Below, one piece after another: positions 1,306 to 20,253 of a stretch of DNA of 20,298 nt. How positions within the stretch are numbered: position 1 is the stretch's first letter; each line of letters starts with the position of its first letter. This stretch comes from a virus, in IMG/VR virus record IMGVR_UViG_3300030294_000187, positions 1-20,298 of that record. The stretch is one strand, 5' to 3'. The notes beneath the pieces are model-generated. The model was given only the letters and a program-made list of their open reading frames with translations. It ran no database searches and was not told the origin of the DNA. A program made the translations under genes and the position numbers.

Positions 1306-1497
1306 ATGAATAAATTCTTTTTATACGGTCAAAAAACCGTAATCATAATTCTTTGTGTGGTTGATATTATCACTTTTTATGGAGTAATCACTACCGGCGA
1401 ATGGCACTTATGGATAATAATAATTATGGTTACCACATTAGCAGCTTCACTCTATCGCGATCTTAAGCGAGAAAATTCAAAACACAAATCAATTTAA
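1306..1497 (+). CDS. Small two-helix inner-membrane protein
   Basis: A 63-residue protein with two hydrophobic segments at about residues 9-28 (TVIIILCVVDIITFYGVI) and 33-51 (HLWIIIIMVTTLAASLY), and a basic tail (RDLKRENSKHK) likely facing the cytoplasm. It lies 18 bases after the ner-like gene and 11 before the ATPase gene, so it belongs to the early operon. No family is recognised. Small membrane proteins in early phage operons often act in superinfection exclusion, but nothing in the sequence proves that. Confidence 0.6.
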   Translation: MNKFFLYGQKTVIIILCVVDIITFYGVITTGEWHLWIIIIMVTTLAASLYRDLKRENSKHKSI

Positions 1498-1510
1498 ATA
1501 GCATTTAAAT
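1492..1510. repeat. RTTTAAAY-N3-RTTTAAAY motif, copy 1 (overlaps a start codon)
   Basis: ATTTAAAT-AGC-ATTTAAAT: two 8-base half-sites with an 11-base period. Its last two bases are the first two of the ATPase start codon (ATG 1509-1511), the same register as the near copy at 6978-6996. This copy is also a perfect inverted repeat. Confidence 0.7.
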
Positions 1511-2102
1511 GAAAACAATGTCACCGTCTCAAATTACTGAACGAGTAGTTGAAGTCTATCCGTTTGAAGGCGATTTTAAAAAGGTGCTTGGCGAACCGGA
1601 TATACGCTTTTCTACACTAATACGTGGTGAAGCTAAATCGGGTAAGTCAACGTATGCTGCTTTATTCGCGCAATACATCAGCCAATTTGGCAAAACACTC
1701 TACGTATCAGCTGAGGAGCGTTTGAACTCGAAAACGCTTCAAAATCGCATTAAACAATGTGGTGTTGTCTCTGACAAAGTACGATTTGTACATACTAAAA
1801 ACATTGCTGAGATTGAAAAATTAGTTCAAACAGGTGGTTATCGGTTCGTGATTATTGATTCAATACAACATGTGCAAATGAGTTACAATGAATTTGAAGC
1901 TTTGCGTTTCAAATTTCGCCGGAGAAAACTATCCTGGCATTTGATAATGCAGATGGGTGAATCAATTGTCAAATGGAAACATGAGGTTGATGTTCTCATT
2001 GAAGTGAAACAAGGCCGTGCTTATGCCCATGGTCGCTACGGAAAAGCAGATTCTATTAAAGTATTGAATTCAAACAACGCTCAAACTGAATTATTTGAAT
2101 AA
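1509..2102 (+). CDS. RecA-fold ATPase resembling RadA/DnaB-type cores
   Basis: A 197-residue soluble protein. The Walker A motif is GEAKSGKST at about residues 40-48 and the Walker B strand is FVIIDSIQ at about 113-120. The C-terminal stretch (HEVDVLIEVKQGRAYAHGRYGK, in two parts around residues 157-178) resembles the end of the RadA/Sms ATPase core, where a glycine-rich basic turn follows a 'VDV-I-V' strand. The N-terminal zinc finger and C-terminal Lon-like domain of RadA are absent, so this is a bare core. It is not MuB, which is encoded separately at 5382. A role in replication or recombination of phage DNA is inferred. The start codon overlaps the 19-base repeat; the ATG at 1518 is an alternative start. 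Confidence 0.65.
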   Translation: MKTMSPSQITERVVEVYPFEGDFKKVLGEPDIRFSTLIRGEAKSGKSTYAALFAQYISQFGKTLYVSAEERLNSKTLQNRIKQCGVVSDKVRFVHTKNIAEIEKLVQTGGYRFVIIDSIQHVQMSYNEFEALRFKFRRRKLSWHLIMQMGESIVKWKHEVDVLIEVKQGRAYAHGRYGKADSIKVLNSNNAQTELFE

Positions 2103-2103
2103 T

Positions 2104-2304
2104 ATGGAAACTAACGACCTTAAAATCAATACAACCTACCAATACAAATGTGGTGAAGAACCTGTAAAGGTAGTTTACATAGGAGAAAACAAGAAGTATA
2201 AAAACACCTATTCATTCAAAGCCCTGGAAGGTAAATGCAAAGGTGTAAAAGACACATTGTCTGCAAAATCAGTAGAGAACTTCATAAAGCAAATAGAACA
2301 ATGA
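2104..2304 (+). CDS. Hypothetical small early protein
   Basis: 66 residues starting at the ATG at 2104, one base after the preceding stop. An upstream TTG at 2095 is less likely because it would overlap the ATPase gene. The protein is rich in lysine and predicted beta strands (TYQYKCGEEPVKVVYIGENK), which suggests a small beta-barrel, but no family is recognised. Its stop overlaps the next start (ATGA), so the two are probably translationally coupled. Confidence 0.55.
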   Translation: METNDLKINTTYQYKCGEEPVKVVYIGENKKYKNTYSFKALEGKCKGVKDTLSAKSVENFIKQIEQ

Positions 2305-2675
2305 ACAAACCCACAAAAACAACCCAACTGCCAACCTTCGACACAGTAGAGCAACTAATGTCAGACACCTTCTTGTTAAACTTAATAGCTGAGCATATCA
2401 CTGAATTTGTTTCAAAACGTAATGAAATATCAGAAGGTGGTAAAATAAAGCTTAAACGCAACCCTATTGACTTCCTGATTGAAATGAACAAGTTAAATGA
2501 AAACAGCATAGCCACTGAATATATTGAAATTCACTACAAACGATCAGTATTATCCGGTTCAGTTCGTGAATTCATATCCTACCTAGTTATTGAATGTATT
2601 GGTAAAACCTTTCAACATTACGATGTCCTTTATAAAAAACAGAATAAGAAACAATCTAAAATAAAAAAATCATGA
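2301..2675 (+). CDS. Hypothetical early protein, 124 residues
   Basis: The start is placed at ATG 2301, overlapping the previous stop by four bases (ATGA). The frame is open further upstream, but that extension lies inside the previous gene. The protein is soluble and mostly helical, with a lysine-rich tail (KKQNKKQSKIKKS). No known domain is recognised. It sits in the run of small genes between the ATPase and the transposase, and its end overlaps the next start in the same ATGA manner. Confidence 0.55.
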   Translation: MNKPTKTTQLPTFDTVEQLMSDTFLLNLIAEHITEFVSKRNEISEGGKIKLKRNPIDFLIEMNKLNENSIATEYIEIHYKRSVLSGSVREFISYLVIECIGKTFQHYDVLYKKQNKKQSKIKKS

Positions 2676-2881
2676 ATGTACTAGACAAATCACAAGCTAT
2701 TGACATCATTTCAAGACAAAATAGTGTGCAAGTATCCTTCAATGTTCCTGTAACTGATAATTATTCAAACTGCTACGACATTTTAATCCATAAATCGAAT
2801 GCTACTACCATCAATGATCTGATAAAGGCAGGATTTAGCCTAAGTATGTCAGATAAAGGATTATCAGTAAATAAACATTAA
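2672..2881 (+). CDS. Hypothetical small early protein, 69 residues
   Basis: Starts at ATG 2672, overlapping the preceding stop (ATGA). It is soluble, with alternating strand and helix character (SVQVSFNVPVTDNYSNCYDI, then a helical TINDLIKAGFSLSM). No family recognised. It is the last small gene before the transposase, from which it is separated by a tRNA-like stretch. Confidence 0.5.
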   Translation: MNVLDKSQAIDIISRQNSVQVSFNVPVTDNYSNCYDILIHKSNATTINDLIKAGFSLSMSDKGLSVNKH

Positions 2882-2882
2882 C

Positions 2883-2929
2883 TCCTAAACGGTTTATCAA
2901 TCCGGGGTTCGATTCCCTGGATAGGAACA
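2883..2929 (+). other. tRNA-like 3' half (T-arm plus acceptor), probable relic
   Basis: Bases 2902-2920 form a T-arm with stem CCGGGG/CCCTGG and loop TTCGATT, containing the exact GGTTCGATTCC signature of a tRNA T-arm. It is followed directly by an acceptor-like strand (GATAGGA, 2920-2926), an A and CA. TCCTA at 2883-2887 pairs with TAGGA at 2922-2926. Only 14 bases lie where the D-arm and anticodon arm should be, so no working tRNA is encoded. It fills the 64-base gap before the transposase. Confidence 0.5.
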
Positions 2930-2945
2930 AGTCAAATTACATTCT

Positions 2946-4994
2946 ATGCCAATTTACAGTAATAACATTCTCAGCTTAACAGTACCTGAACTCGAACAAA
3001 TCGGGCTATCGGTCAACTACCTGAAAAGGGCGTTATCCGGTCAGCGGTCAGGACAAGTTTACTGTTGGGAACACCATAAGATTGGCCGTCAAATATTCAT
3101 TCATTACGACTCTTTACTGCCAAAATACAAAATACTTATTACCAATGTCCTTTGTGCAGGAGTAGAACCTGAAGTGTATTTATGCGATAAAGAAACAAAC
3201 AAAAACAGCACGGTTCTAAATGCCGTAGCTGATCAATTACCTGGACTTGTAACAGCTTACCCTGACGATCTTAAATTACTTATGGAAACTCACCTTTATT
3301 CACCTACAGAAGCACATCAACTGGCAAGAGCTGCTGGTTGGTTGCGTTTGCTGAATGAATATGATGTTCGACGAGTTCGTTCATTGGGTTACCGTTCAAT
3401 TGTTGAGTTCCATGAATCAGTATTTAAATGCTGTTTAAACGAACAAAGCATGAACGTTCCATTGATCAAATGGAAAAAAGGAACTATTACCAACATGCGT
3501 GTACTTGTTCGCAATGCCGTGGAATACAAACGCAAGGGTATTGAAAGCTTAATACACAAAGGAGTTGGAAACGTAAACCGCGAAATGGCCGATGCTCAGG
3601 TACACGCTAAAATGATTGAACTGGCATCAAATCGTGTAAAATATAGCTGGGAAGATGTAGCCATGTTATACAATGATTGGGCTATTGAAAACGAAAAGCC
3701 GGAAATGACAACATCAGCTGTAAAATCATACCTCTATATTCCTAAAATTAAAAAAGTATGGTATTATGCACGTCATGGTAAATTAGCAGGAGACAACGAT
3801 TTACAACCACTTATTCAACGCAAAAAACCATCGTTCCCTGATGCATTATGGTCGATTGATGGCACCACCACTCAGCTATATTATTTAGATGATAAAGGTA
3901 AGATTCAAAGCGACCTGTATGCTTATTTCGTTACCGATTCAAACACCGGTGCTATCATTGGCCACTCCATCGCATTTGCTGAGACATCCGGAATGGTTAC
4001 AGAAGCGTTGAAAAATGCAACCGACACCTGGGGAAACAAACCATATCAAATACAATACGATAATTCATCAGCTAATGTAAGTTATGCAGTACAGGCATTG
4101 ATGAGCAACATGAGTCGCGTACATTTCCCATGCGAACCTTATAAAGGCCGTAGCAAGTACGTGGAGTCAATTATCGGACACTTCCAACAAAGAGTTCTCC
4201 GCAAACGTGAATTCTTTAAAGGTGGAAATATAGATACTAAAAGCCTTAATTCAAAGGCAAATCCGGAACTACTAAAGGAACTAAGCAAAAACCCTGAACG
4301 ACTATTTAATCGTGAAGGAATTATTAAAGAATTCGATGAAGCCGTAAATGAATGGAATAACCGTGGTGAAGCACGTGACTCATTCGGTAGGTTCGTTGGT
4401 GACAGTAAAATATACCGGTATGAAACCATACAACACGAAAAACGCGCAAAACTAAACTACTTCGATAAACTTAGCCTCTTTGTTTTCCAACTCAAAGAAT
4501 CATACAAATACAGCACACAAGGCATTCAGATTGAAATATCCAAAAAGAAATACAACTTCATAGTTCCTGATCCTGACAGCATTGGTGACTTCATGTTTGC
4601 CAACGAACACCTGGGTGAAAAGTTCGAAGTACGTATTGATATGGCCAAACCTGAAATGTGCACCCTATTGCAATCCGGAGTAGTTGTGGCTCATGCCTAT
4701 GAAAAGGAACGATATTCCGCTTGTGTAGCCGACCTTAAAGAGGGTGAAAACAGCAAGAAAATAGCTTTTAAGACAAAACAAACCGAGTTTGGTATAAACT
4801 ATTCAATCACAGAATTAGAACGTCAAATGTCTATCCTGGGCGAATTAAAAGCAACCGGCACCGATGGACTTGGTTGGTGGGATACTACAAAATCGAATGA
4901 AAACGCACGCAACAATCAGAACGAAGATAAACGCAATGGTATAGGCGATGGATATACTGAAATTGAACGTAAACTTTTAAATATAGGACGATGA
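2946..4994 (+). CDS. MuA-like DDE transposase
   Basis: This 682-residue protein matches the size of MuA (663). It carries out strand transfer of the phage ends during integration and replicative transposition. Residues 1-70 form a winged-helix-like DNA-binding region. Residues about 100-290 are further helical end-binding domains. The catalytic RNase H-fold core runs from about 300 to 425, with D305 (LWSIDGTT), D372 (QIQYDNSS) and E407 (SKYVESIIG). A beta-barrel domain follows, and the C-terminal tail from about 620 is where MuA contacts MuB. D305 to D372 is 67 residues, as in MuA, but D372 to E407 is only 35, shorter than the 56 of MuA. It overlaps the next gene by four bases. Confidence 0.9.
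   Translation: MPIYSNNILSLTVPELEQIGLSVNYLKRALSGQRSGQVYCWEHHKIGRQIFIHYDSLLPKYKILITNVLCAGVEPEVYLCDKETNKNSTVLNAVADQLPGLVTAYPDDLKLLMETHLYSPTEAHQLARAAGWLRLLNEYDVRRVRSLGYRSIVEFHESVFKCCLNEQSMNVPLIKWKKGTITNMRVLVRNAVEYKRKGIESLIHKGVGNVNREMADAQVHAKMIELASNRVKYSWEDVAMLYNDWAIENEKPEMTTSAVKSYLYIPKIKKVWYYARHGKLAGDNDLQPLIQRKKPSFPDALWSIDGTTTQLYYLDDKGKIQSDLYAYFVTDSNTGAIIGHSIAFAETSGMVTEALKNATDTWGNKPYQIQYDNSSANVSYAVQALMSNMSRVHFPCEPYKGRSKYVESIIGHFQQRVLRKREFFKGGNIDTKSLNSKANPELLKELSKNPERLFNREGIIKEFDEAVNEWNNRGEARDSFGRFVGDSKIYRYETIQHEKRAKLNYFDKLSLFVFQLKESYKYSTQGIQIEISKKKYNFIVPDPDSIGDFMFANEHLGEKFEVRIDMAKPEMCTLLQSGVVVAHAYEKERYSACVADLKEGENSKKIAFKTKQTEFGINYSITELERQMSILGELKATGTDGLGWWDTTKSNENARNNQNEDKRNGIGDGYTEIERKLLNIGR
3422..3440. 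repeat. RTTTAAAY-N3-RTTTAAAY motif, copy 2 (inside transposase)
   Basis: ATTTAAAT-GCT-GTTTAAAC, with an 11-base period. It encodes VFKCCLN (residues about 159-165) of the transposase. It is the only exact copy far from a gene start. Confidence 0.65.
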
Positions 4995-5305
4995 ATACAA
5001 TTAAAATCATTTCTGAAGCGTATTCAGAAGCATACTGGAAATTCGGTGTAAGTATCGGAAAGTCAGAATTGCAAAAAATTATCAGAAAATCAATCCACGA
5101 ATCTCAAGCATGGTATAAGGTTAAAGAACATACCGCTGAAGAAATAGAAGAACTCGGTGAGGTATTGATTAAAGATAGTTACGGTGAAATAGACCTAGCA
5201 AAATTAGTAAGTAGAGATGGTTTGTGGATATGGGAAGTAAAGAATCCTAACACAGACATTGATCTTGATGACATATTTAGTTTCAGATCAATTGAACTAA
5301 AATAA
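4991..5305 (+). CDS. Hypothetical protein between transposase and MuB-like genes
   Basis: A 104-residue acidic soluble protein whose ATG overlaps the transposase stop (ATGA), so it is likely coupled to transposase translation. The N-terminal half is helical (SEAYWKFGVSIGKSELQKII) and the C-terminal half acidic (NPNTDIDLDDIFSF). No domain recognised. Its position between the two transposition genes suggests, but does not show, a role in transposition. Confidence 0.55.
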   Translation: MNTIKIISEAYSEAYWKFGVSIGKSELQKIIRKSIHESQAWYKVKEHTAEEIEELGEVLIKDSYGEIDLAKLVSRDGLWIWEVKNPNTDIDLDDIFSFRSIELK

Positions 5306-5318
5306 TTATAAAATAACC

Positions 5319-5363
5319 GAGCCCCACATACAGCTGTCTCAAAACTAACTGCATATAGGGCTC
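5319..5363 (+). other. Hairpin in the leader of the MuB-like gene
   Basis: GAGCCC (5319-5324) pairs with GGGCTC (5358-5363) around a 33-base loop that contains a cagctg palindrome. It lies 19 bases before the MuB-like start in one of the few gaps in the early operon. It is not followed by a T-run, so it is more likely a processing or translation-control element than a terminator. Confidence 0.35.
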
Positions 5364-5381
5364 ATAAAAGAAAACAAAGAT

Positions 5382-6326
5382 ATGAAAGAATTCTCATTTG
5401 AACAAAAACAAACATTGCGCGATGCAATTATCAGCATGCAGGAAACATCCGGACTATCTGGGAACGAGTTTTCAATGAAACGCCTGGGATTTACCAATGG
5501 CAGTAAATTCAGTCATGTCCGGAACAACTGGGACAAAGCCGGCATGGTAGGTATTGACACCTGGGAAGCAATTGAAAAGTACATAGAATCATCAAACAAG
5601 TACAAAGGTGTAGCAACTGCCAACCTCAAAAAGGTATGGGAAAGCTGCGAACGTGCCTACGAACTCAAAAAAGCAATTGCCGTGGTTGGTGAAGGTGGAC
5701 TTGGAAAAACATTTGCCCTGGAAAGCTACAAACGTCACATCGAAAGCGAACAACGCTTTAAGGTTGTTTACTTCGACGCTTCCATGGTTCGCACCAACAA
5801 GCAATTTATAGCCGGATTAATGGAATCGTTGGATTGCTACAAGACTGGAACAATCAGCTCACAGTTAGTTGAAATGCGTAAACAGGTTACTAAAATGAAT
5901 CTGTTGATTTGCATTGATGAAGTTTCAAGTATGCAAGGTCATAACGTTACCATCATCAAGGACATTATGACTGCTTTTAAAGACCTTTGCGGCATTGTAT
6001 TCAGTGGAACACCCTACTTTGTCAACAACCTGAATAAAGGTGCAAGCCGCGACCGTCACTTATTCAGCGAAACCCGCGACCGCCTGTTTATGCTTCCTGA
6101 ATTTCTTGAAAAACCAACTGAAAAAGAAGCTGAAGCAATTTTCACAGCAAACGGGATCACTGATAAAGCAACCCTTGACATTGTAATGGGACGTAGCAAA
6201 CATAAAGAACTTATTGCACGCAGTTGGCTCACAAAAAAGACCTTCAGAGGTATCAAAGATTGTATCGACATGGTTCGCATGACTGAAATGGGTAGCAAAA
6301 TCAATTACAACAATTTAAATCTTTAA
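5382..6326 (+). CDS. MuB-like AAA+ ATPase (target-DNA activator)
   Basis: A 314-residue protein, close to MuB (312). In Mu, MuB binds target DNA with ATP, stimulates MuA and protects phage DNA from self-insertion. Residues 1-75 hold a helix-turn-helix-like region (GLSGNEFSMKRLGFTNG). The Walker A motif is GEGGLGKT at 103-110 and Walker B is LLICIDE at 174-180, with D179 and E180. A sensor-like segment (GIVFSGTPYF) follows at about 205-214. It lies downstream of the transposase as in Mu, separated by one small gene and a 76-base gap with a hairpin. The same fold also occurs in TniB/IstB-type helpers, but the context makes MuB the best reading. Confidence 0.85.
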   Translation: MKEFSFEQKQTLRDAIISMQETSGLSGNEFSMKRLGFTNGSKFSHVRNNWDKAGMVGIDTWEAIEKYIESSNKYKGVATANLKKVWESCERAYELKKAIAVVGEGGLGKTFALESYKRHIESEQRFKVVYFDASMVRTNKQFIAGLMESLDCYKTGTISSQLVEMRKQVTKMNLLICIDEVSSMQGHNVTIIKDIMTAFKDLCGIVFSGTPYFVNNLNKGASRDRHLFSETRDRLFMLPEFLEKPTEKEAEAIFTANGITDKATLDIVMGRSKHKELIARSWLTKKTFRGIKDCIDMVRMTEMGSKINYNNLNL

Positions 6327-6330
6327 TATC

Positions 6331-6531
6331 ATGAATAAAGATGACCGCAATAAACTAACCAAAGCGGGTTTTACTATGCTCCGAACACATGAAAATCCGG
6401 AGTTGACAATTACTTACATGACCGGTTCACATGCATGGTCAACGTGGGGAAAATATGAAACCAAAGCAGCTATGCAACGCGAAATTAAAAGAGTGAATCA
6501 AAACGAACCATTCATCATTTTTGAAAACTAA
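6331..6531 (+). CDS. Hypothetical small early protein, 66 residues
   Basis: Starts four bases after the MuB-like stop. It is soluble and basic, with two tryptophan-containing turns (TGSHAWSTWGKYETK). It has the look of a small DNA-associated protein, but no family is recognised. It is co-directional and tightly packed with its neighbours. Confidence 0.55.
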   Translation: MNKDDRNKLTKAGFTMLRTHENPELTITYMTGSHAWSTWGKYETKAAMQREIKRVNQNEPFIIFEN

Positions 6532-6534
6532 ATC

Positions 6535-6720
6535 ATGACACAGCATCAGAATAAATTAGATGAAATTTCCAAACTTCAGACGCGTTATGACGAAATTGAA
6601 GAATGGTTGATTGATAACCCTTACATGCATCCTGAATGGGAAGTACACATGAAAGAACGTAATGACCTTGAATTACAAATTGAAGCTTTAAATGAAGCAA
6701 TTAAATACACCGTAAATTAA
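6535..6720 (+). CDS. Hypothetical small helical protein, 61 residues
   Basis: Almost entirely helical, with two heptad-like stretches (LDEISKLQTRYDEIEEWL and RNDLELQIEALNEAIK) separated by NPYMHPEW, so it probably folds as a helical hairpin. It lies three bases after the previous stop. No family recognised. Confidence 0.5.
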   Translation: MTQHQNKLDEISKLQTRYDEIEEWLIDNPYMHPEWEVHMKERNDLELQIEALNEAIKYTVN

Positions 6721-6727
6721 AAACATC

Positions 6728-6844
6728 ATGGAAACATTCAAATATGTACCCCTTTTTATAATCATTGCACTAATTATTATCCCTCGCTTATATCGACTAA
6801 CTTCAAAAATGAAATCTAAAAATGAAAACAAACGAAACACCTGA
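6728..6844 (+). CDS. Very small single-span membrane protein, 38 residues
   Basis: The ATG at 6728 opens a 38-codon frame with one hydrophobic segment (YVPLFIIIALIIIP, about residues 6-19) and a strongly basic tail (SKMKSKNENKR). This predicts an N-out, C-in topology. It starts seven bases after the previous stop and overlaps the next frame, which fits the packing of the operon. It is too short for family recognition. Confidence 0.5.
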   Translation: METFKYVPLFIIIALIIIPRLYRLTSKMKSKNENKRNT

Positions 6845-6983
6845 ATACGATCAGGACAACCAGTTCGATTATGATTTGGACTTTACCGGAATCAGATGCT
6901 TTATCTTTTTTATCGGGTCATTTTTTGGAGCCGGCTTAGCAGCTGTATCACTTGCAATTTACTACTTAATTATAAACTTTTAA
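6822..6983 (+). CDS. Small membrane protein, 53 residues
   Basis: The ATG at 6822 opens a frame with an acidic N-terminus (YDQDNQFDYDLDF) and a long hydrophobic C-terminal part (about residues 24-53, with IFFIGSFFGAGLAAVSLAIY), enough for one or two membrane passes. It overlaps the preceding 38-codon frame by 23 bases and ends 11 bases before the DUF3164-type gene. The opposite end charges of the two overlapping proteins suggest that they might pair in the membrane; this is speculation. Confidence 0.5.
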   Translation: MKTNETPEYDQDNQFDYDLDFTGIRCFIFFIGSFFGAGLAAVSLAIYYLIINF

Positions 6984-6996
6984 ACTCATTTTAAAT
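6978..6996. repeat. RTTTAAAY-N3-RTTTAAAY motif, near copy (overlaps a start codon)
   Basis: TTTTAAAC-TCA-TTTTAAAT keeps both TTTAAA cores and the 11-base period but has T instead of R at the start of each half. It overlaps ATG 6995-6997 in exactly the same register as copy 1 overlaps ATG 1509-1511. Confidence 0.5.
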
Positions 6997-7937: not shown

Positions 7938-7947
7938 ATTACCACTT

Positions 7948-7969
7948 ATGCCGGCTTGATCACCGGCAT
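7948..7969 (+). other. GC-rich hairpin between early genes
   Basis: ATGCCGG (7948-7954) and CCGGCAT (7963-7969) form a perfect 7-base stem with an 8-base loop (cttgatca). There is no T-run after it, so it is not a typical terminator. It precedes the ASCH-like gene and may mark a processing point or separate translation units. Confidence 0.4.
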
Positions 7970-7995
7970 TGAGTGCCAAACCGATAACCATAGAG

Positions 7996-8454
7996 ATGGC
8001 CGGTACATTTAAACACTATTTAAATAGATTAATTATGGTAATAGGTTATAAAAAACAAATCCCCTGGGGAAAACCAACTGATTTTAAGCGCAAAATTTTA
8101 GTTGATGTAAAAAGACATACTATGCGTGAAGATATTCATAATCGTTGGCATGCTGGTCGTAAAATACAGCATGCTCATGGAGTCAGAACAAAGTATTACA
8201 ATCAGTTTGCCGAAAACTTATGTACACGAACACAGCTTGTTTATATTGGAAAAACAAGTACTAAGAATGAAGATTTATGCTATAACTACAATGGTGTTAA
8301 CTTCGGTGTGATAGTAGACAAAAAACGCCTTACAAACTATCAAATTGGATATTTAGCTTTTTACGATGGATTTGACACTACAGATGACTTCTTTCATTGG
8401 TTCCAAAAAGGGTTTAAAGGTAAAATAATTCACTGGGCCGATTTACACTATTAA
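7996..8454 (+). CDS. ASCH-like domain protein
   Basis: The pattern KRHTMR...NRWHAGRKIQHAHGVRTKYYNQF (in parts, about residues 39-72) resembles ASCH-fold proteins, which use a small beta-barrel thought to bind RNA or modified nucleotides. A second half (NFGVIVDKKRLTNYQIGYLA, then FFHWFQKGFKGK) completes the fold. The start is uncertain. ATG 7996 gives 152 residues, MAGTFKHYLN, with the 19-base repeat placed as in the GemA-like gene. ATG 8035 gives 139 residues. A TTG at 7969 overlaps the hairpin and is unlikely. It ends one base before the next ATG. Substrate unknown. Confidence 0.5.
   Translation: MAGTFKHYLNRLIMVIGYKKQIPWGKPTDFKRKILVDVKRHTMREDIHNRWHAGRKIQHAHGVRTKYYNQFAENLCTRTQLVYIGKTSTKNEDLCYNYNGVNFGVIVDKKRLTNYQIGYLAFYDGFDTTDDFFHWFQKGFKGKIIHWADLHY
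8007..8025. repeat. RTTTAAAY-N3-RTTTAAAY motif, copy 3
   Basis: ATTTAAAC-ACT-ATTTAAAT, 11-base period. If translation starts at 7996 it encodes TFKHYLN and begins 11 bases after the A of the ATG, the same offset as copy 4 in the gene at 8739. If translation starts at 8035 it is in the leader. Confidence 0.7.
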
Positions 8455-8455
8455 C

Positions 8456-8737: not shown

Positions 8738-8738
8738 A

Positions 8739-9296
8739 ATGAAAAAGACATTTAAACAGCATTTAAACGTGCAAAACAATGAATCCAGGTTAAAGGATAA
8801 AAGACAACAATATCATAAGTTGCTTATTGCCCTGGGAGAAGAAAAGTATAAAGAAGTAATAATCGGTGGAACTTTCCCAGGCATTGAACACACCACTGAT
8901 CTAACAGAATCTCAAATTGACATTTTGATAACCGATGCTGAAAATAGAATGGGTCACAAAGGATTGCCAGTTCAGCGTATATCTATCGCACCGGCCAATA
9001 ATCCGGAAGAATATCAGATCAAACAACTCCGGAACAAATGCCTTCAGGTATTGACCGAACGTGGCATTAAAACGACTCCAAAAGACTGGAGTCAGGTAAA
9101 CAATGAACTGGCCGCTCCACGTTACCAATGGGTTCTTACTGACGAACAACGAGCTTCAGGGATGATTAACAAACGTGGTATTGGTACTTTCAACACGGTA
9201 GAATCATTGCGTAAGCTTTTCTATCAACTTTGTGCAATACGTGATAATCAAAAAGTGATTCAAACAAAGGTTACTGAACGAGCTGCACAAAACTAA
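8739..9296 (+). CDS. GemA/Gp16-like regulatory protein
   Basis: A 185-residue basic helical protein. Residues about 17-70 (KDKRQQYHKLLIALGEEKYK, then a segment ending in DLTESQIDILITDAENRMG) resemble the N-terminal half of Mu GemA/Gp16 (DUF1018): a helical pair followed by 'LTESQ...L'. The C-terminal half (QIKQLRNKCLQVLTERGIK ... LRKLFYQLCAIRDNQK) resembles its second helical unit. In Mu, GemA affects host gene expression and DNA supercoiling. The match is by overall pattern and position, so the family name is tentative. The 19-base repeat lies in codons 4-10 (TFKQHLN). Confidence 0.5.
   Translation: MKKTFKQHLNVQNNESRLKDKRQQYHKLLIALGEEKYKEVIIGGTFPGIEHTTDLTESQIDILITDAENRMGHKGLPVQRISIAPANNPEEYQIKQLRNKCLQVLTERGIKTTPKDWSQVNNELAAPRYQWVLTDEQRASGMINKRGIGTFNTVESLRKLFYQLCAIRDNQKVIQTKVTERAAQN
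8750..8768. repeat. RTTTAAAY-N3-RTTTAAAY motif, copy 4
   Basis: ATTTAAAC-AGC-ATTTAAAC, 11-base period, starting 11 bases after the A of ATG 8739 and encoding TFKQHLN. The offset from the start codon equals that of copy 3 relative to ATG 7996. Confidence 0.7.
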
Positions 9297-9297
9297 T

Positions 9298-9501: not shown

Positions 9502-9503
9502 AT

Positions 9504-9698: not shown

Positions 9699-9718
9699 GA
9701 CAGAATATAAAATAATAG

Positions 9719-9748: not shown

Positions 9749-9749
9749 G

Positions 9750-10601: not shown

Positions 10602-10633
10602 CAAATATACGATTAAATATTTCTTTTATACAA
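10602..10633 (-). promoter_or_regulatory. Possible promoter for the small reverse-strand unit
   Basis: On the reverse strand TATATTTG (10609-10602) fits the TAnnTTTG -7 box. A partial -33 element (TTGT, 10633-10630) lies 20 bases upstream, inside the end of the methyltransferase gene. Transcription would start near 10595. Confidence 0.35.
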
Positions 10634-11443
10634 CATTATATCCGTATAACCTGAATTATGGTTCATCCTAGCGCTCATCTCCTTCTTAGTTGCACCTTTA
10701 AACGGGTTCTCAGCCCCAAGGTTCTTTTCAATCCAGTCAGTCAACTCAATGATTGATGATTTATTTGAAGTGAAATAGAAGTAACTTGTACCCTTCAGGA
10801 CCGATAGCACATCCAAGTAATTAGCCAACTTCCAGTAATTAGAATACGTTGAAACGTCGGTTGATAAATATGGTGGATCAACCAGGAACACAACACCGGT
10901 TATATGCTTCCAACGGTCAAATAAAACCCTATAATCCATCTTTACTATATCTACGCTCTGAAGGTAATTATTAGCTGGCTCATAATCTGATTTACGTACA
11001 CAATTATACATCCCTTGTTTCTTCATCTCTTCATAGTTCATAGCATAGTTCATACTAAATAATAGGCTTGAACTTATAGTAATATAATCTACGTATCCAG
11101 TTACTTTTTCTTCGCGTTCAATTACCTTCAGGACGCGTTGTTTGGCCTCTTTACTTATAACCTTGTCAACCGGTTCATTCTGTAAGATAATGCGAAATTC
11201 AGCCAACAGTGCGTTTGTACGTTCGATATTAGCGATACGAAGATGATAATCATCGAAGTCATTATAAATAACATCGGCTCCTGGATACATTTGCTTCACC
11301 GTGTGAGCCAGTAAACCACTACCGCCGAACAAGTCGACAAACATTGGTGCATTTTTAAACTCCTTTAAAGCGATTTTAAACTCTGAAAGAAAACGCCGTT
11401 TTTGACCCTGAAACGGCAGCGGGGCTTGTGAAAATTGTTTCAT
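10613..11443 (-). CDS. D12-class adenine-N6 DNA methyltransferase (Dam-like)
   Basis: Transfers a methyl group from S-adenosylmethionine to adenine in DNA. The 276-residue protein has the N-terminal motif PLPFQGQKRRF (8-18), the SAM-binding motif FVDLFGGSG (35-43) and the catalytic motif DPPY (189-192). Its length is typical of Dam-type enzymes (about 270-280). No restriction enzyme lies next to it, so it is a solitary phage methyltransferase, probably protecting DNA against host restriction or timing phage events. In Mu the DNA-modification gene mom also lies beyond the tail-fibre genes. No clear promoter is seen directly upstream, and a strong hairpin separates it from the late operon, so it may rely on read-through. 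Confidence 0.9.
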   Translation of the reverse strand: MKQFSQAPLPFQGQKRRFLSEFKIALKEFKNAPMFVDLFGGSGLLAHTVKQMYPGADVIYNDFDDYHLRIANIERTNALLAEFRIILQNEPVDKVISKEAKQRVLKVIEREEKVTGYVDYITISSSLLFSMNYAMNYEEMKKQGMYNCVRKSDYEPANNYLQSVDIVKMDYRVLFDRWKHITGVVFLVDPPYLSTDVSTYSNYWKLANYLDVLSVLKGTSYFYFTSNKSSIIELTDWIEKNLGAENPFKGATKKEMSARMNHNSGYTDIMLYKRNI

Positions 11444-13501: not shown

Positions 13502-13504
13502 AGC

Positions 13505-14143: not shown

Positions 14144-14168
14144 TTTATTTTGTTTTTAAATTGTTATG

Positions 14169-15374
14169 TTACATTAAATAGATAGTCAATCCCTGTCCAG
14201 GTGTAATAGAACCTACACCTGTTACAAATACCTCGACATAGTCACCAATTGAAAAACTAATTGGATTAGTAGTTAAAACACAGGGTACAGTAGCCGTTCT
14301 TGTGGTACTTGAACCGCTATTAAATGTCATATTTGTTGAGAAAATAGATACTCCGTTTTTCTTTACAATTACTGTAAATGTTCCACCAACCGCCGGAACT
14401 ATCAATTCACCTATAAAATTCGTAAAGTTTTGTGCCGTTTGAAAAACATATCTATTTTTTCGTACAGTAGTCGATGCAGTTATATCTGTAGTCTCGTCAG
14501 AACAAACAAGCGGTATTGTATTAAGAATCTTTTTTTGATCTGAAGTCAAACCCTGGGCACTTATTCCTGTATCTATTCCACCAATCCACCAGTTACCATT
14601 ACCCCCAATATTTGGTGATATACCTGATACACCATTTGCACCATTGCGTACTGTATATGTAGAAGTTGAATTGTCTGAATATGTAATAGTATAAGTATCT
14701 ATCGTCCCAGCTGTACCATTACCTGATGTTCTAACGATTGAAGTAATACCTATACCATCAATCCCATCAGAACCTTTAATATCACTTAGCTTTTTTCCTG
14801 AACCTTTTATAAATTTTCCTGATTCATCAGAATACACTGCAATTTCGTCATAATCAGGTGTAGCCAATGAATTCTCAAAAGTCCAAACTTCAACAGTTCT
14901 GTATTGATTTGTTTTGAATTCTGATACAGGATACCCGGCACCAAAATTCACACAAAAGGCATGTGTTTCATCTACCTCAGTTGATGTCCAATACAATTCA
15001 GGATAAAAACCGCCTATGATATCTTTATTCGCACACAATTGCAAAAGCTGTGTTTCGGTAGGTAATAGCCCATCTGCTACAGCTTCCGGCCATAATTTTA
15101 AAACTTCAGAATATGAGTTATTTACTATTAATCCTTTTTGAACATTAACATCAAACCCCGGGTCTGTTGACTGTAAAATATATCCTACTTTTCCGCCTCT
15201 TACTGATTGGCCAAGTACATAAATAGATGGATTTATTACAGTTTCCACCTTCACATCAACAGCATCCAATATCGCAGCAGCTGCATCACCAACACGGATT
15301 GCACTATTTGCATTTTTCTCCTTTTCATTCCGTATTTGTAGCCATAATTGGCGTGCAATCGTTATTAAACTCAT
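14169..15374 (-). CDS. Tail fibre with Lcl/DUF1566-type lectin-like domain
   Basis: A 401-residue fibre protein. Residues 1-45 are a helical attachment region. Residues about 95-170 match the Lcl/DUF1566 pattern: LPTETQLLQL, then YWTSTEVDETHAFCVNFGAG, then YRTVEVWTF. This domain has a C-type-lectin-like fold. A glycine-rich, collagen-like or spacer region follows (GSDGIDGIGITS; NGANGVSGISPNIGGNGNWW, about 200-275), and then a C-terminal beta-sandwich (GTFTVIVKKNGVSIFS ... GDYVEVFVTG). Lectin-like domains in tail fibres typically bind cell-surface sugars or proteins, so this is a second receptor-binding candidate beside the LRR adhesin. No reverse transcriptase or variable repeat was found, so there is no sign of retroelement-driven diversification. 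Confidence 0.65.
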   Translation of the reverse strand: MSLITIARQLWLQIRNEKEKNANSAIRVGDAAAAILDAVDVKVETVINPSIYVLGQSVRGGKVGYILQSTDPGFDVNVQKGLIVNNSYSEVLKLWPEAVADGLLPTETQLLQLCANKDIIGGFYPELYWTSTEVDETHAFCVNFGAGYPVSEFKTNQYRTVEVWTFENSLATPDYDEIAVYSDESGKFIKGSGKKLSDIKGSDGIDGIGITSIVRTSGNGTAGTIDTYTITYSDNSTSTYTVRNGANGVSGISPNIGGNGNWWIGGIDTGISAQGLTSDQKKILNTIPLVCSDETTDITASTTVRKNRYVFQTAQNFTNFIGELIVPAVGGTFTVIVKKNGVSIFSTNMTFNSGSSTTRTATVPCVLTTNPISFSIGDYVEVFVTGVGSITPGQGLTIYLM

Positions 15375-15387
15375 AATCGTTTATTGA

Positions 15388-15681
15388 TTAAATTGGACAT
15401 GAGACATCATCATAAATTCGTGAACCATCAGCCGAAACCGTTAGTCCTGGATATTGCGATTGATAGTTAGCCTGCACATATGCAGCATAAGCCGTTGCGC
15501 GGGTGTTATAATCAGAAGTTGACATCTTAGCCAATTCATCAGCCGTAACAACCGGATATGTTATCCCCTGAGTGAACGTGGACATAAATGGCAATACATT
15601 AACTGATTGCTGAACTCCATTTAACTTTACTGTAACTGTAAGCGTTTTAAATCGCTTGTATCCATTATTTATGAATGCCAT
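15388..15681 (-). CDS. Small tail-module protein, 97 residues
   Basis: Its ATG overlaps the stop of the upstream Gp48-like gene by one base. The N-terminal half is beta-rich (RFKTLTVTVKLNGVQQSVNV) and the C-terminal half helical (STSDYNTRATAYAAYVQANY). No family recognised. The position between the baseplate and fibre genes suggests a fibre-attachment or baseplate-edge protein. Confidence 0.45.
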   Translation of the reverse strand: MAFINNGYKRFKTLTVTVKLNGVQQSVNVLPFMSTFTQGITYPVVTADELAKMSTSDYNTRATAYAAYVQANYQSQYPGLTVSADGSRIYDDVSCPI

Positions 15682-16424
15682 TATCGTTGTGGTGTTAATT
15701 CATTTTTATAATTATATGAGCTATCAGAAATAGGAGTAATACTTACTATTTCAGCACTTATTATTTCATAATCGCTTAAGAATGCTGCTGATTGTGAAGT
15801 CCCGATTGGCAACTCAAAATTATAATTGCCGTCAACTCCGGTATGTGCAATGCTTAGATATACAACTATAGTTACATTCGATGCAACCGTATAATCACTT
15901 TCAACATATGCTCCATATCCCGAAAAGAATACACGAATATTATTATCAATTGGTCCGACATCTGTTTTTTCGCAAACCGAATCAGTCCAGGAAGCTTCAT
16001 ACGTTATTCCGTTCAATTCACATACAGGGTCAGTCCAGGCAATTTCATAAGTTACTGTTGATTGTCCTATTGAATACCTTTTCCCCTTTAGCTTGTATTT
16101 TTCTAACAACGAAACAAGTAATTGACCATTGACTGTTATTCCGGAAGGTATGTTTACAATAAAATCAACCGTTAAGCCATCACCATCACTTATATAAATC
16201 GTTCTCAGAAAGTTCCCAAATAGCCGGTAATTTAATATCGCTTCAATATACATCACCTGGCATGTTATAGCGGCTTGTAACCTAATATTTGACTGCCATG
16301 ACTTGAATAGTACAAATTCAGTAACGAGTGGAGCAGATACAGCCGTATAGATTGCAGCCAAACTTGCTGAACGAAGAAAAGTAGGCATTAATAAATTCAG
16401 AAACTTATTAAAATCTATATTCAT
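15681..16424 (-). CDS. Gp48-like tail/baseplate protein
   Basis: The start is placed at ATG 16424, overlapping the baseplate J-like stop (ATGA), giving 247 residues; the longer open frame begins without a good start inside the J-like gene. In Mu, gene 48 (P2 I-type tail protein) follows gene 47 (J-type), and this is the same order. The N-terminal 90 residues are helical and hydrophobic (FLNLLMPTFLRSASLAAIYT). The middle has a duplicated element, TYEIAWTDPVCEL and TYEASWTDSVCEK. The C-terminal half is beta-rich. The family is inferred from position more than sequence. Confidence 0.45.
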   Translation of the reverse strand: MNIDFNKFLNLLMPTFLRSASLAAIYTAVSAPLVTEFVLFKSWQSNIRLQAAITCQVMYIEAILNYRLFGNFLRTIYISDGDGLTVDFIVNIPSGITVNGQLLVSLLEKYKLKGKRYSIGQSTVTYEIAWTDPVCELNGITYEASWTDSVCEKTDVGPIDNNIRVFFSGYGAYVESDYTVASNVTIVVYLSIAHTGVDGNYNFELPIGTSQSAAFLSDYEIISAEIVSITPISDSSYNYKNELTPQR

Positions 16425-17284
16425 ACTATATGAGGTTGATAAGTTGGTGTGATCACTCCCAGTTTGAACCATCCGTTTGTACTTTCAAATGTTCCCCATG
16501 TCTGCTTTTCCACTCCATTAATTTTAAAATCAGTAACGGAAACATCAACTACACCATCAACGAGCTGTATGGCATCCATGATTTTTGTAATATTCAGATT
16601 CCCGCCAAAGTCCACATCATTCAATTTTGTAATAAAATCAGTTAATGAATCAATTACAGGATAATTAGTACCAATGATCAACTTACCGGTTGAGTCCATG
16701 ACAAGCGGGTTATAATCAACTGTTATAGAAAAATCAACAATATCACCGTTACCTGATATCACCTGGATCAACACGCCTGCCGGTTTAATAACCGATGCGT
16801 AGGCTTCAAATAAATTTTTATCTTCAGCCAGTAAAGCAGATATCTCACCACCCGTTTCAGTAGCAACAAACAATTGAACTTTACATACACCATCTACATT
16901 TTGACGAACTGCTACCCGTTTGATGATTTGTTTTGTGATATCAATTGTCTGATATCCAAAAATAAATGTTGTGGTATTCATAACCAGTCCAATTCCTTTT
17001 TGAAATGCCATTGCTTGAGCGTGCCACCATGCTGAATTAGCAATATATGATGAGTCGACTTTTTCCTGTATTTCAGTTTTAAAAATGTCTAAAATCATTT
17101 CAAAACTCCATACTGCAAAAGCAAACGCATAAAACAATAAGCTTTCCATGCTTACCTTTGAAAAAATAACATTAAATCCCTGGGCAACATATCCCTGATT
17201 AAATCCGTATAATGTTTGAATTTCCGGTTGAGAAATATATGCGTTACCTATTTGAGTCTTAATGTCAGCTATTAGTCTTGCCAT
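16421..17284 (-). CDS. Baseplate J-like protein (Mu Gp47-like)
   Basis: Part of the baseplate wedge of the contractile tail. The 287-residue protein has the typical order: a helical N-terminal part (MARLIADIKTQIGNAYISQP ... ESLLFYAFAFAVWSFEMILD), then beta-rich domains (KRVAVRQNVDGVCKVQLFVA; GVLIQVISGNGDIVDFSITV) and a C-terminal segment ending at the next gene's start. The segment VDYNPLVMDSTGKLI followed by NYPVIDSLTDFITKLNDVDF is characteristic of Bacteroidota J-like proteins. It lies six bases after the LysM-like gene and overlaps the Gp48-like gene by four bases. Confidence 0.7.
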   Translation of the reverse strand: MARLIADIKTQIGNAYISQPEIQTLYGFNQGYVAQGFNVIFSKVSMESLLFYAFAFAVWSFEMILDIFKTEIQEKVDSSYIANSAWWHAQAMAFQKGIGLVMNTTTFIFGYQTIDITKQIIKRVAVRQNVDGVCKVQLFVATETGGEISALLAEDKNLFEAYASVIKPAGVLIQVISGNGDIVDFSITVDYNPLVMDSTGKLIIGTNYPVIDSLTDFITKLNDVDFGGNLNITKIMDAIQLVDGVVDVSVTDFKINGVEKQTWGTFESTNGWFKLGVITPTYQPHIV

Positions 17285-17290
17285 GTTTTA

Positions 17291-17839
17291 TTAATTAAAT
17301 ATAAAGTCAAATGTATAATCAAAGATGCCACTTTCAGAAGCATTTACCGTTACAATAGAAGTAGCCGGTTTAATTTGTTTTTCCTGGTAATAGGTAGAAA
17401 TTTGTTTATTAAAAATCCCTGCCTGTAAAAGATTTGTTCCAGGAGTAAGTTCATCCGTTATCCCGATCGAGTTGATTAATGCCATTTCAAATGCAGCTTC
17501 AGCACTTCCTGAAACCTGAATAGCGATATCGAAAAGAGTTTGCCCGGATACTGATTTTAGAACATTGTTCTGTGAAAATAAACTAATGCCAACCAACGAG
17601 ACCGGAACACCGCTTGTTTCAACCGCTCGTGCCCGACTCGTTACCGGCTTAATTTGTTTGTCCTGATAATAATTTAAAACAGTATCGTTCAATACATCCG
17701 ATAATGCCAGTTCGCTTATTGTATCTAAGTCATCAGTCATGTTTAACCCATTCAACAGAGCAAGTGCAAACGCTGCCTCAACAGAGCCGGCTGTTTGAAT
17801 AGCTATATCAAAAATAGATTGACCTTGTAATGCCTTCAT
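17291..17839 (-). CDS. Duplicated LysM-like tail protein
   Basis: A 182-residue protein built from two tandem copies of one module (about residues 1-70 and 94-163, offset 93). Each copy starts GQS/GQT-[IL]FDIAIQ, continues through GS-EAAF--AL-N, and ends YYQ[DE]KQIKP[VA]TS. The modules look like degenerate LysM domains, which in phages bind peptidoglycan or link tail-tube ends. The duplication is visible at DNA level too: near-identical stretches at about 17367-17400 and 17643-17677. It lies between the lysis genes and the baseplate J-like gene. It could be a baseplate hub or tail-tip component; that is inferred. Confidence 0.6.
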   Translation of the reverse strand: MKALQGQSIFDIAIQTAGSVEAAFALALLNGLNMTDDLDTISELALSDVLNDTVLNYYQDKQIKPVTSRARAVETSGVPVSLVGISLFSQNNVLKSVSGQTLFDIAIQVSGSAEAAFEMALINSIGITDELTPGTNLLQAGIFNKQISTYYQEKQIKPATSIVTVNASESGIFDYTFDFIFN

Positions 17840-17879
17840 GATACTTTTTTATTGTTTATTTGCTCGGTACCGGAAGATA

Positions 17880-18401
17880 TCACTTCAGAACATTATACTT
17901 TTTCAACAAATAGTAGATCAAACCTAATCCGGAAAAAATCAAAACTATTACACAGATCGTAATCCAACCAGGTGTTTTTGTTTTTGTTTCTTGAGTGTTG
18001 ATATTATTTGCTATGGAGTCTGATTTAAAGTCTGATTTATCAGCTAATTTTGTTTTACTAACATCATTGGTTTTGACATTTGATTCAGTATTTACATTAG
18101 CAACTTTATTTGTATTTTTAACCTGTTCTGTAACAGTTATTTTTTCGGCGAACTGTTTACCTGAACTATCCGGTTTTGACAACACAGTCTCAGTTACTTT
18201 AACTGACACATCTTCATTTGTTACTGATTTATCAACTGTCGACAGACTTGTTTCAGTTGACAGATTTGATTCATTCGACTGTTTTACGTTCAAATTAGCT
18301 TCTTTTTTTACTTCAGCTTTCGAGGTTGTAGTTTGCTTAACGGTACGGCAACTGAATGTGATCATCGCGAGTAGAACGATAAAAAGTAGTTTAGTTTTCA
18401 T
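17880..18401 (-). CDS. Putative one-piece spanin (u-spanin)
   Basis: Spanins fuse the inner and outer membranes in the last step of lysis. This 173-residue protein has a lipoprotein signal with the lipid cysteine at 18 (LLAMITFSC). An extended hydrophilic Thr/Ser/Lys/Val-rich middle (19-143) follows, and then a C-terminal membrane helix (WITICVIVLIFSGLGLIYYL, 146-165) with a basic end (KKYNVLK). Lipid anchor at one end and membrane helix at the other is the layout of unimolecular spanins such as phage T1 gp11. It directly follows the holin gene, overlapping it by 11 bases, and completes a lysozyme-holin-spanin cassette. No sequence similarity to T1 gp11 is claimed. Confidence 0.65.
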   Translation of the reverse strand: MKTKLLFIVLLAMITFSCRTVKQTTTSKAEVKKEANLNVKQSNESNLSTETSLSTVDKSVTNEDVSVKVTETVLSKPDSSGKQFAEKITVTEQVKNTNKVANVNTESNVKTNDVSKTKLADKSDFKSDSIANNINTQETKTKTPGWITICVIVLIFSGLGLIYYLLKKYNVLK

Positions 18402-18939
18402 TTTTTGTTGGCTTTATTTGATTTATTAAACCTGTCCATCCACCTTGAATGGCTTCAATTATTTGTGTTTTTGGTTTACCCTGTATAACTGCTATATTTT
18501 CAAAAATGGAAGTAATATATTCAACCAAAAACCCTGTCAATGAAACGACATATACAAAATTAAAGAAGGTATAAGCAGCAATCTGAATCAGGTTTGTTTG
18601 GTTTTCATATTCTTTTACAAATGCATGAATGATGTAAAGAATCAATAACCATATTCCAATTTTCAATACGCACCTAGAGAACTTAAATGATTCAAATTTA
18701 TGTCCTTGCTTCTTTGATGCCTTAATTCCGGTTACTACCTCAATGATGATAGCAATAAACATAGCAATGGCCAATGCAGGCTTCATTCCAAAAAAGTAGT
18801 TGACTGTTCCCGATATAAAGGATATCATCAGCATTAGCCCCTGAAGTTGATATTTAAAACTAGGGAAAAGCGACAATACAAACTCATTCAGTGAGCCATA
18901 TTCGTAGGATGAAAGGAATTTGTTTACGTAATTATTCAT
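18391..18939 (-). CDS. Phage holin, multi-span membrane protein
   Basis: Forms the membrane lesions that release lysozyme. The start is placed at ATG 18939, four bases after the lysozyme stop, giving 182 residues; a TTG at 18966 would overlap the lysozyme gene. Three or four hydrophobic spans lie at about residues 32-50, 54-71 (ALAIAMFIAIIIEVVTG), 92-108 (LKIGIWLLILYIIHAFV) and 117-138. The segment EVVTGIKASKKQGHKFESFK is typical of the TcdE/phage-holin-4 family, where a short basic loop follows a 'D/E-xx-TG' turn. Its position between lysozyme and spanin supports the call. Confidence 0.75.
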   Translation of the reverse strand: MNNYVNKFLSSYEYGSLNEFVLSLFPSFKYQLQGLMLMISFISGTVNYFFGMKPALAIAMFIAIIIEVVTGIKASKKQGHKFESFKFSRCVLKIGIWLLILYIIHAFVKEYENQTNLIQIAAYTFFNFVYVVSLTGFLVEYITSIFENIAVIQGKPKTQIIEAIQGGWTGLINQIKPTKNEN

Positions 18940-18943
18940 GACT

Positions 18944-19417
18944 TTATTTTGTAAAATATAATTCAACTTCAGCTTTACGTCTCTTTACAAGTCCTGGCAA
19001 TACTTTACCATCTCCATGAATCCAACTGTTAAACTGATTAGCAATTGCAAGATCATTTGGATTTGCCAATACTTTTTTCAAAAGCATACTATCACCCAGT
19101 CCTTCAGGTATAGTATCAATATCTATATCTGAACCACAGTTATATGCAAAGTCAACCAATGCATCAAACTGGTTTTGTGTCAGTTTTACGGACTTAGTAA
19201 GCATGGTTACATCAGCTTCAAAAGCTTTTAAATCCCACAAAAGCATCTCATCAGCTTTTGCTTGAGTAATTGCAGGATCTTTCATGGATACCCGGACTCC
19301 GTTTGTATATCGGGTGCTACCCCAACCAATGGTAGGAATACCGGCAGGACACAAATAAGGTTTTAATTTGCATCCTTCAAATTGTCTAACTAATAAAAAT
19401 GCTCTTAGTGATTTCAT
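18944..19417 (-). CDS. T4-type lysozyme (GH24 endolysin)
   Basis: Cuts the glycan strands of peptidoglycan at lysis. The 157-residue protein has the GH24 catalytic arrangement: E14 (FEGCK), C23 (YLCPAG, the T4 D20 position, where cysteine is a known natural variant) and T29 (IPTIGWG), spaced as in E-8-C-5-T. The segments QFDALVDFAYNCG and FNSWIHGDGKVLPGLVKRR are typical of the C-terminal helical lobe. No signal peptide is seen (the N-terminus MKSLRAFLLVRQFEG is part of the enzyme), so export should depend on the holin. It heads the lysis cassette. Confidence 0.9.
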   Translation of the reverse strand: MKSLRAFLLVRQFEGCKLKPYLCPAGIPTIGWGSTRYTNGVRVSMKDPAITQAKADEMLLWDLKAFEADVTMLTKSVKLTQNQFDALVDFAYNCGSDIDIDTIPEGLGDSMLLKKVLANPNDLAIANQFNSWIHGDGKVLPGLVKRRKAEVELYFTK

Positions 19418-19426
19418 AACTATATT

Positions 19427-19738
19427 TTATTTAATTGATGTTTGAATTCTGTCTTTATAATCATCATAATCAATGCCGGCACGTGTAAAATGCTGTTTAA
19501 TCACATTATCAATTTGCGACTTGTCATATTTACCCCGGATAAACTTTGTTAGTCCAGGACCAAGTAAAGGATCTTCTTTCAAATCGCCCTGGTGAAGATT
19601 CAATACGATCACCGCATCTTGATCAATAGAACTTCCAACTGTCATCCCTGACAGAATCATCCCATTTGAATCCCGAATTACGTTAATAGCCAGTTCAAAG
19701 CCATCAGTTAATAATATGCCTTTACGATTCTTATCCAT
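19427..19738 (-). CDS. Gp46/W-like baseplate protein
   Basis: A 103-residue soluble protein starting at ATG 19738, which overlaps the upstream stop by one base. It has an N-terminal beta part (KGILLTDGFELAINVIRDSN), a central motif (LNLHQGDLKEDPLLGPGL) and a helical C-terminus. In Mu the spike gene 45 is followed by gene 46, a small gp25/W-like wedge protein. Size, order and the acidic central loop fit that role, but the sequence match is not decisive. Related Bacteroidota proteins often carry no functional name. Confidence 0.5.
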   Translation of the reverse strand: MDKNRKGILLTDGFELAINVIRDSNGMILSGMTVGSSIDQDAVIVLNLHQGDLKEDPLLGPGLTKFIRGKYDKSQIDNVIKQHFTRAGIDYDDYKDRIQTSIK

Positions 19739-20253
19739 CAATGCGTTATTTTATCATTCTCAATATCACTATAATCACCAAGTTGTTTGCCGGTTATTGC
19801 TGCCTTTAATGCAATTTGCAACGCACTGGGTGAACCGTTGCCAGGCTCAGGTACTGGAGAACCTGAAAGAACTGTAATAATTGACTGAAGCAAAGAATTC
19901 GTTTTATTTAATTCTGTTACCAGTTTCGGTGTAATGGCCAATCCACCATTATCACCGCCATTGAACTCCATCAATTCAGCTTCTACTGCGTAAATTAGGA
20001 ATGCAACCGATTCCTGGCCTTCCAAAATTGCAATAAGGCAATCACTTTCTAAAGCCGGCTTAATGTCTACAGAACCGAATCCAAGAGCAACATCATAATA
20101 AGCCAGTTCGTCACTCATTCCTTCAGCTTCCATCGTCTTTTTATCCCAATCAACCGACTTGCATGTTACCCAACGTATCTGCGCTTGCATAGACCCGTTT
20201 AAATGCCGTTTAAATAACATCATAAATTCATCTGCCTCCGTTTGTAGACTCAT
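19738..20253 (-). CDS. Baseplate spike/assembly protein, Gp45-like
   Basis: A 171-residue protein starting at ATG 20253; the open frame extends to a TTG at 20268 that is less likely. After a helical N-terminus (TEADEFMMLFKRHLN) there is an OB-fold-like beta domain (QIRWVTCKSVDWDKKTMEAE ... DCLIAILEGQESVAFLIYAV), as in gpV/Gp45 spike proteins. A conserved-looking segment (FNGGDNGGLAITPKLVTELN) and a helical region follow. It is much shorter than Mu Gp45 with its long spike, so it may be a spike base. The 19-base repeat lies in codons 12-19 (LFKRHLN). Confidence 0.5.
   Translation of the reverse strand: MSLQTEADEFMMLFKRHLNGSMQAQIRWVTCKSVDWDKKTMEAEGMSDELAYYDVALGFGSVDIKPALESDCLIAILEGQESVAFLIYAVEAELMEFNGGDNGGLAITPKLVTELNKTNSLLQSIITVLSGSPVPEPGNGSPSALQIALKAAITGKQLGDYSDIENDKITH
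20197..20215. repeat. RTTTAAAY-N3-RTTTAAAY motif, copy 5
   Basis: GTTTAAAT-GCC-GTTTAAAT on the forward strand, 11-base period. On the coding strand it begins 38 bases after the A of ATG 20253 and encodes LFKRHLN, in the same reading phase (TTT AAA nnn nnn TTA AAy) as copies 2, 3 and 4. Confidence 0.65.

Follow-up and report, generated by a model that had tools for sequence, protein, structure and literature searches.

The window analysed here is a 20,298-bp stretch of viral DNA (IMG/VR record IMGVR_UViG_3300030294_000187, 36% G+C) that encodes a MuA-type transposase, a MuB-type ATPase, a DUF3164 protein, a CI-like repressor and a protein whose family matches GemA; the stretch belongs to a Mu-like transposable phage of Bacteroidota. 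Distributed along it is a 19-base motif, RTTTAAAY-N3-RTTTAAAY (R, purine; Y, pyrimidine; N, any base), composed of two boxes with TTTAAA cores at a spacing of 11 bp (Table 1). This motif is a real, conserved DNA element of transposable phages. The original prediction had reported five exact copies, a near copy and a weaker relative in the methyltransferase gene, all of which are indeed there, and had held that well under one exact copy would arise by chance, which agrees with an expectation of 0.00 and a maximum of 0 in 100 dinucleotide shuffles of the window. TTTAAA itself is not enriched (45 observed, 43 expected from the window's own 5-mers). Pairs of TTTAAA at a spacing of 11 bp number seven, and any other spacing below 60 bp is represented at most once.

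Table 1. Motif copies and transposition genes in the window (G1 and G6 are genomes of related phages; ORF, open reading frame)
Feature	Position	Strand	Remarks
Exact site	1492..1510	+	First core holds the TAA stop of ORF 1306-1497; second box overlaps ATG 1509 of the Sak4-like ATPase gene; counterpart at the same place in G1 (1387)
MuA-type transposase gene	2946..4994	+	phrog_310, E=2e-42
Exact site	3422..3440	+	Within the MuA-type transposase gene (+485); encodes FKCCLN
MuB-type ATPase gene	5382..6326	+	phrog_296, E=1.5e-20
Near copy TTTTAAACTCATTTTAAAT	6978..6996	+	Follows a 53-aa ORF, whose stop lies in the first core, and leads into the DUF3164 gene (overlaps ATG 6995); R/Y pattern mismatched at 2 positions, TTTAAA unaltered in each core
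Exact site	8007..8025	+	At the beginning of the phrog_8581 gene, whose true start is likely ATG 8035, 9 nt downstream of the site; kept in G1 (7858) and, in other relatives, at the equivalent place
Exact site	8750..8768	+	Start of the GemA-like gene (8739-9296); present in G1 and G6 too
Degenerate relative of motif	11363..11381	-	Within the adenine methyltransferase gene (10613-11443), +71; cores preserved, inner flanks changed; all relatives have a degenerate form here (RTTTAAAG..CTTTAAAY type)
Exact site	20197..20215	-	Near the start of the minus-strand tail gene (19738-20253); encodes FKRHLN; positional class close to mid-genome in near-complete relatives

Searches with MuA recovered further phages and prophages whose transposases are 61-82% identical to that of the window, and near-complete records of related Bacteroidota Mu-like phages carry 5-8 exact copies each. 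Conservation in related phages and abundance in host chromosomes had been proposed as checks, and both came out in favor of the motif: it is kept at the same positions in relatives, and 98 other genomes of the host order yielded only six matches (two of five loci in phage-like DNA). In prophage-carrying bacterial genomes, nearly all copies sit on phage contigs. A motif of the host is excluded by this rarity. The places conserved within the clade are MuA +485, the position before the portal-type gene, that after the gene G homologue, and positions in or before tail genes near mid-genome. Distances between sites are uneven, from about 0.5 to 18 kb, which excludes evenly spaced beacons. In the comparison of distances to start codons, also suggested originally, 51 of 72 copies in nine phage records lay at most 50 nt from a start codon, against 13% of random positions. 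A promoter element is excluded, since these distances vary widely and some sites overlap the ATG.

Two arguments of the original prediction fell away. The common phase and codons of the four intragenic copies had been taken as independent evidence of selection, and this is trivial since the motif itself forces FKxxLN: 11 mod 3 is 2, so in either of the other frames one core would contain a TAA stop, and because the motif is palindromic any intragenic copy encodes FKxxLN on either strand. The 11-base distance from an ATG to the third and fourth exact copies is probably an artefact of how the start codons were chosen. Relatives of the gene assigned to 7996 begin MILGYKKQ, which corresponds to ATG 8035 in the window and leaves the third copy upstream of the true start; the extension MKKTFKQHLN is missing from most GemA-like relatives, and a GTG follows directly after the fourth copy.

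Comparison across relatives strongly supports selection on the DNA of the motif. At the intragenic MuA site all 10 phages compared use the codons TTT, AAA and TTA without exception, whereas in MuA at large a single codon is used throughout at 1 of the 21 invariant leucines, 2 of the 14 phenylalanines and 2 of the 23 lysines. The codons of the second conserved intragenic site, in the tail gene, are frozen likewise, and at the neck/tail-completion junction the motif persists whether it is coding, as in some phages, or bears a stop codon, as in others. Both the frozen codons and the persistence across coding and stop contexts therefore argue that selection acts on DNA. Selection on either DNA or RNA had been proposed; the DNA level stood, and an RNA hairpin did not, since the flanks of the cores do not pair.

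Aligned together, 139 distinct sites gave the extended consensus Y-RTTTAAAY-RSY-RTTTAAAY-R, in other words two YRTTTAAAYR decamers one base apart. Read in the sense direction, R is preferentially A and Y preferentially C, for genes on both strands, and the orientation follows transcription: a matrix trained on plus-gene sites called 28 of 31 held-out minus-gene sites forward, these 31 not being independent trials as sites of one positional class are related. The downstream flank carries a phase-locked 11-bp AT/GC signal from +22 to about +97 that was reached by none of 400 shifted controls (72 clusters, equal weights), while upstream 64 of the 400 reached it, so that phasing is found downstream only. 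The motif heads a phased AT/GC stretch of roughly 75-100 bp.

The motif extends well beyond the clade of the window. In a collection of 2.9 million viral contigs, scanned blind to phage type, the exact form ATTTAAACASYATTTAAAC was found in 77 stretches, and 29 of 34 contigs fetched by the motif were Mu-like (18 with a Mu-type transposase and 11 more with a Mu-type portal). Where BLAST detects them, the transposases of the motif-fetched contigs are 21-27% identical to that of the window, except one at 55%. Nearly all of these contigs have 2-12 pairs at 11 bp, compared with mostly 0-2 at neighbouring spacings; they were chosen for one exact copy, and the additional pairs constitute independent evidence. 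Places that recur across distant phages are the MuA/MuB junction (genomes G036, G060, G042 and G034), the position before the portal gene and that after G. Mu itself (L248) has a three-box near copy with one mismatch per pair at its A/B junction (3315-3344), and the 11-bp box arrays of Hankyphage follow a variant pattern, RTTYRAAY. Near the genome ends of Hankyphage p00 (L049; 141-170 and about 42650-42690) and Peternella_1 (L050; 39556-39592), three to four boxes stand 11 bp apart and adjoin the transposase end boxes. No earlier description of the 19-base motif was found in the limited set of literature searched. We put at even odds the general statement that YRTTTAAAYR-N-YRTTTAAAYR with its 11-bp-phased DNA is a sharply defined, oriented element common to Mu-type phages of several phyla at conserved gene junctions, and that it would be read by a factor not yet linked to the motif.

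Two arrays elsewhere may be recorded here. Another three-box near copy lies at the gp46/gp47 junction of Mu (L248; 29816-29845) and, together with 3315-3344, is the best Mu match to the AT profile of the clade. A Bacteroidota contig (L256 9369-9409; genome G160, contig 73) bears a four-box 11-bp array, with no Mu-type gene recognised within 14 kb around it.

Of the gyrase sites studied, the strongest is the strong gyrase site (SGS) of Mu, which is located between genes G and I. Our best explanation, which we hold tentatively at a probability of roughly 0.47, is that each copy of the motif may be the start of the wrapping arm of a host-gyrase site, resembling the right arm of the SGS and present in multiple copies. 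The TA and YR steps are flexible and recur 11 bp apart on one helix face, the phased AT/GC alternation continues downstream, and for DNA of this kind easy wrapping round the C-terminal domain of GyrA is predicted, with its AT minor grooves inward. Gyrase captured at these sites would supercoil the prophage processively and would help to fold the prophage into a domain and to pair its distant ends for replicative transposition, as the central SGS of Mu does. Unlike in Mu, there would be several such sites per phage, near mid-genome and at gene junctions in every operon, and a role for them in end pairing is putative. Published work describes the right arm of the SGS as an essential element that contains bending repeats and whose AT minor grooves are turned towards the GyrA C-terminal domain (PMC10052514, PMC11626157). 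The SGS has been reported only from Mu-like prophages, and is said to arrange the prophage into a domain.

One-sided phasing, near-restriction to Mu-like phages, genomic position and independence from any one phage regulator together make host gyrase the best-supported reader, and the constancy of the motif while the CI repressor type changes also suits a host reader. With regard to position, two Vibrio Mu-like phages that had not been selected by the motif carry exact copies (ATTTAAACGGTGTTTAAAC and ATTTAAACAGTGTTTAAAC) in the gap between G and I, and Bacillus BalMu-1 has a tandem box array at the corresponding place. The right arms of the SGS in Mu, D108 and SfMu contain TTTAAA, TTTAAA and TTTAAC at distances of 21 and 12 bp, and the G/I gap of ZX4290 contains three TTTAAA, 20 and 11 bp apart. 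In the clade of the window a site lies directly after the gene G homologue, near the right end, and most near-complete relatives have one or two sites at 0.47-0.59 of the genome. The original prediction had offered, among other functions, a site for a phage regulator, a translation-control element and a transposition signal. A CI repressor site and an RNA hairpin are contradicted; the best fit is a signal related to transposition, given that the motif is nearly confined to Mu-type phages and matches the arm of the SGS of Mu, a last step that we infer.

Several observations weigh against gyrase as the reader. The alignment of the Mu and ZX4290 G/I gaps is borderline (score 36, shuffled maximum 35), and when Mu was scanned with an AT profile built from the clade sites, the A/B junction came first and the SGS was not among the top 8. 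Genome G2 has no exact site near mid-genome, and the motif is missing from the GC-rich Mu-like phages D3112, B3 and Mushu. Mu has one SGS whereas 5-10 sites are present per genome here, and the motif so far known for gyrase extends over about 130 bp with a degenerate sequence, whereas 12 bases are sharply conserved in the 19-bp consensus. In addition, many copies stand at gene starts, unlike the SGS, and this clustering at start codons is unaccounted for by gyrase.

The main rival, though we consider it unlikely, is a stoperator-like roadblock, in which a phage DNA-binding protein other than CI would occupy the tandem palindromes within operons and stop or slow RNA polymerase, silencing or tuning lytic genes. 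Dispersed junction sites oriented with transcription on both strands, as the held-out minus-gene sites indicate, are what is seen for stoperators (PMC6550527), and tandem palindromes 11 bp apart would suit a dimer of dimers. However, no site lies at the early promoter (none between CI and the first early gene) or at the divergent late promoter, and stoperators change together with their repressor, whereas here a single motif accompanies at least four CI types. The same motif is present in phages whose proteins are barely related, and a search for a conserved specific DNA-binding candidate found none. The candidates set aside include DUF3164, which occurs as well in phages that yielded no copy of the motif and has no convincing PDB relative; the small right-end protein phrog_17154, whose confident four-helix model has no significant PDB match; and the GemA-like protein, of which no homologue was detected in the motif-bearing Hankyphage and Peternella_1. 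In relatives, phrog_17154 is a small conserved protein of the right end (L018 417-653 and homologues), convergent with the tail-completion gene.

CI itself was rejected as the binder, since its N-terminal DNA-binding domains are of at least four kinds and their predicted operators vary, whereas the motif is constant. The palindromes near CI genes differ between phages (AATAAATCATTATGATTTATT in the window, others in G6, G8 and G11), and Hankyphage has its own repressor-flanking palindrome, TCTAAG-N3-CTTAGA. Three palindromes of this TCTAAG/CTTAGA type surround the RepC gene of Hankyphage p00 (L049; 1265, 1404 and 1463) and are candidate operators of the published repressor RepCHP. In the window, a palindrome of the AATAAATCA-N3-TGATTTATT type occurs in two copies (791-811 and 1034-1052), inside and upstream of the CI gene; these are likely operators of the repressor itself, unrelated to the 19-base motif.

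Somewhat less likely again is that the sites are bound by a phage protein of transposition or genome folding. This could be MuA (through its second DNA-binding domain), MuB or a small protein not recognised as such, and the sites might serve in self-immunity or as an enhancer. The near-restriction of the motif to Mu-type phages, its frequent presence at the A/B junction and close to the left end, and the box arrays near the genome ends of Hankyphage and Peternella_1 would all agree with such a protein. Against it, the 12 core bases are unchanged between phages whose MuA and MuB proteins have diverged down to about 20-25% identity, the end boxes presumed to bind MuA differ in sequence from the motif, and orientation with transcription is left unaccounted for. 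The motif is not itself a MuA end box, as the end boxes are AATCGTGYAAATTT-like. Repeated AATCGTGTAAATTT boxes at 146-200 of the window, with counterparts in relatives, are likely where the transposase binds at the left phage end.

An RNA-level element near start codons, acting in translation control or mRNA processing, is improbable. It would explain the proximity to start codons and the sense-strand bias, but the flanking R/Y positions do not show hairpin-type pairing (A.C at 23 of 67, C.A at 27 of 67), palindromic cores with helical 11-bp phasing suit double-stranded DNA, and conserved copies are also present at MuA +485 and at convergent gene ends. An RNA hairpin operator in particular was rejected for want of compensatory pairing between the arms. 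Accidental repetition in an AT-rich genome can be dismissed, being refuted by the shuffles, by the scarcity of matches in the related genomes and by the background counts at other spacings.

What makes a gyrase site strong has so far been described only by a degenerate wrapping preference. The motif occurs naturally in dozens of copies whose consensus and polarity are clear, and these would make a testable sequence rule out of that preference. If gyrase is the reader, the motif would represent a general sequence code for strong gyrase sites, with many copies per phage, and transposable phages of Bacteroidota, Gammaproteobacteria and Bacillota would share one way to fold or supercoil their genomes. 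If it is not, the motif points to a new conserved factor common to transposable phages. In addition, the motif is a practical marker for transposable phages in metagenomes.

Compared with known systems, the motif resembles the stoperators of Cluster A mycobacteriophages in its many dispersed sites oriented with transcription (PMC6550527). Stoperators are, however, asymmetric monomer sites of 13-14 bp, some of them in promoters, that co-vary with the repressor, whereas the boxes here are palindromic and in tandem. Phages P1 (C1) and phiC31 also have several dispersed repressor operators, which in phiC31 are palindromic (conserved inverted repeats). Each of those is tied to one immunity repressor, whereas the sites of the motif do not follow repressor type. 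The BIMEs (bacterial interspersed mosaic elements) of Escherichia coli are likewise dispersed, being intergenic sequences preferentially bound by gyrase (PMC6379681), but they are chromosomal and unrelated in sequence to the motif, which is found in phages. The motif falls outside the single-site definition of the SGS and the repressor-based definition of stoperators. With the SGS it has in common phased TTTAAA-type boxes, a one-sided arm, occurrence in Mu-like phages and, in the Vibrio relatives, a location between genes G and I.

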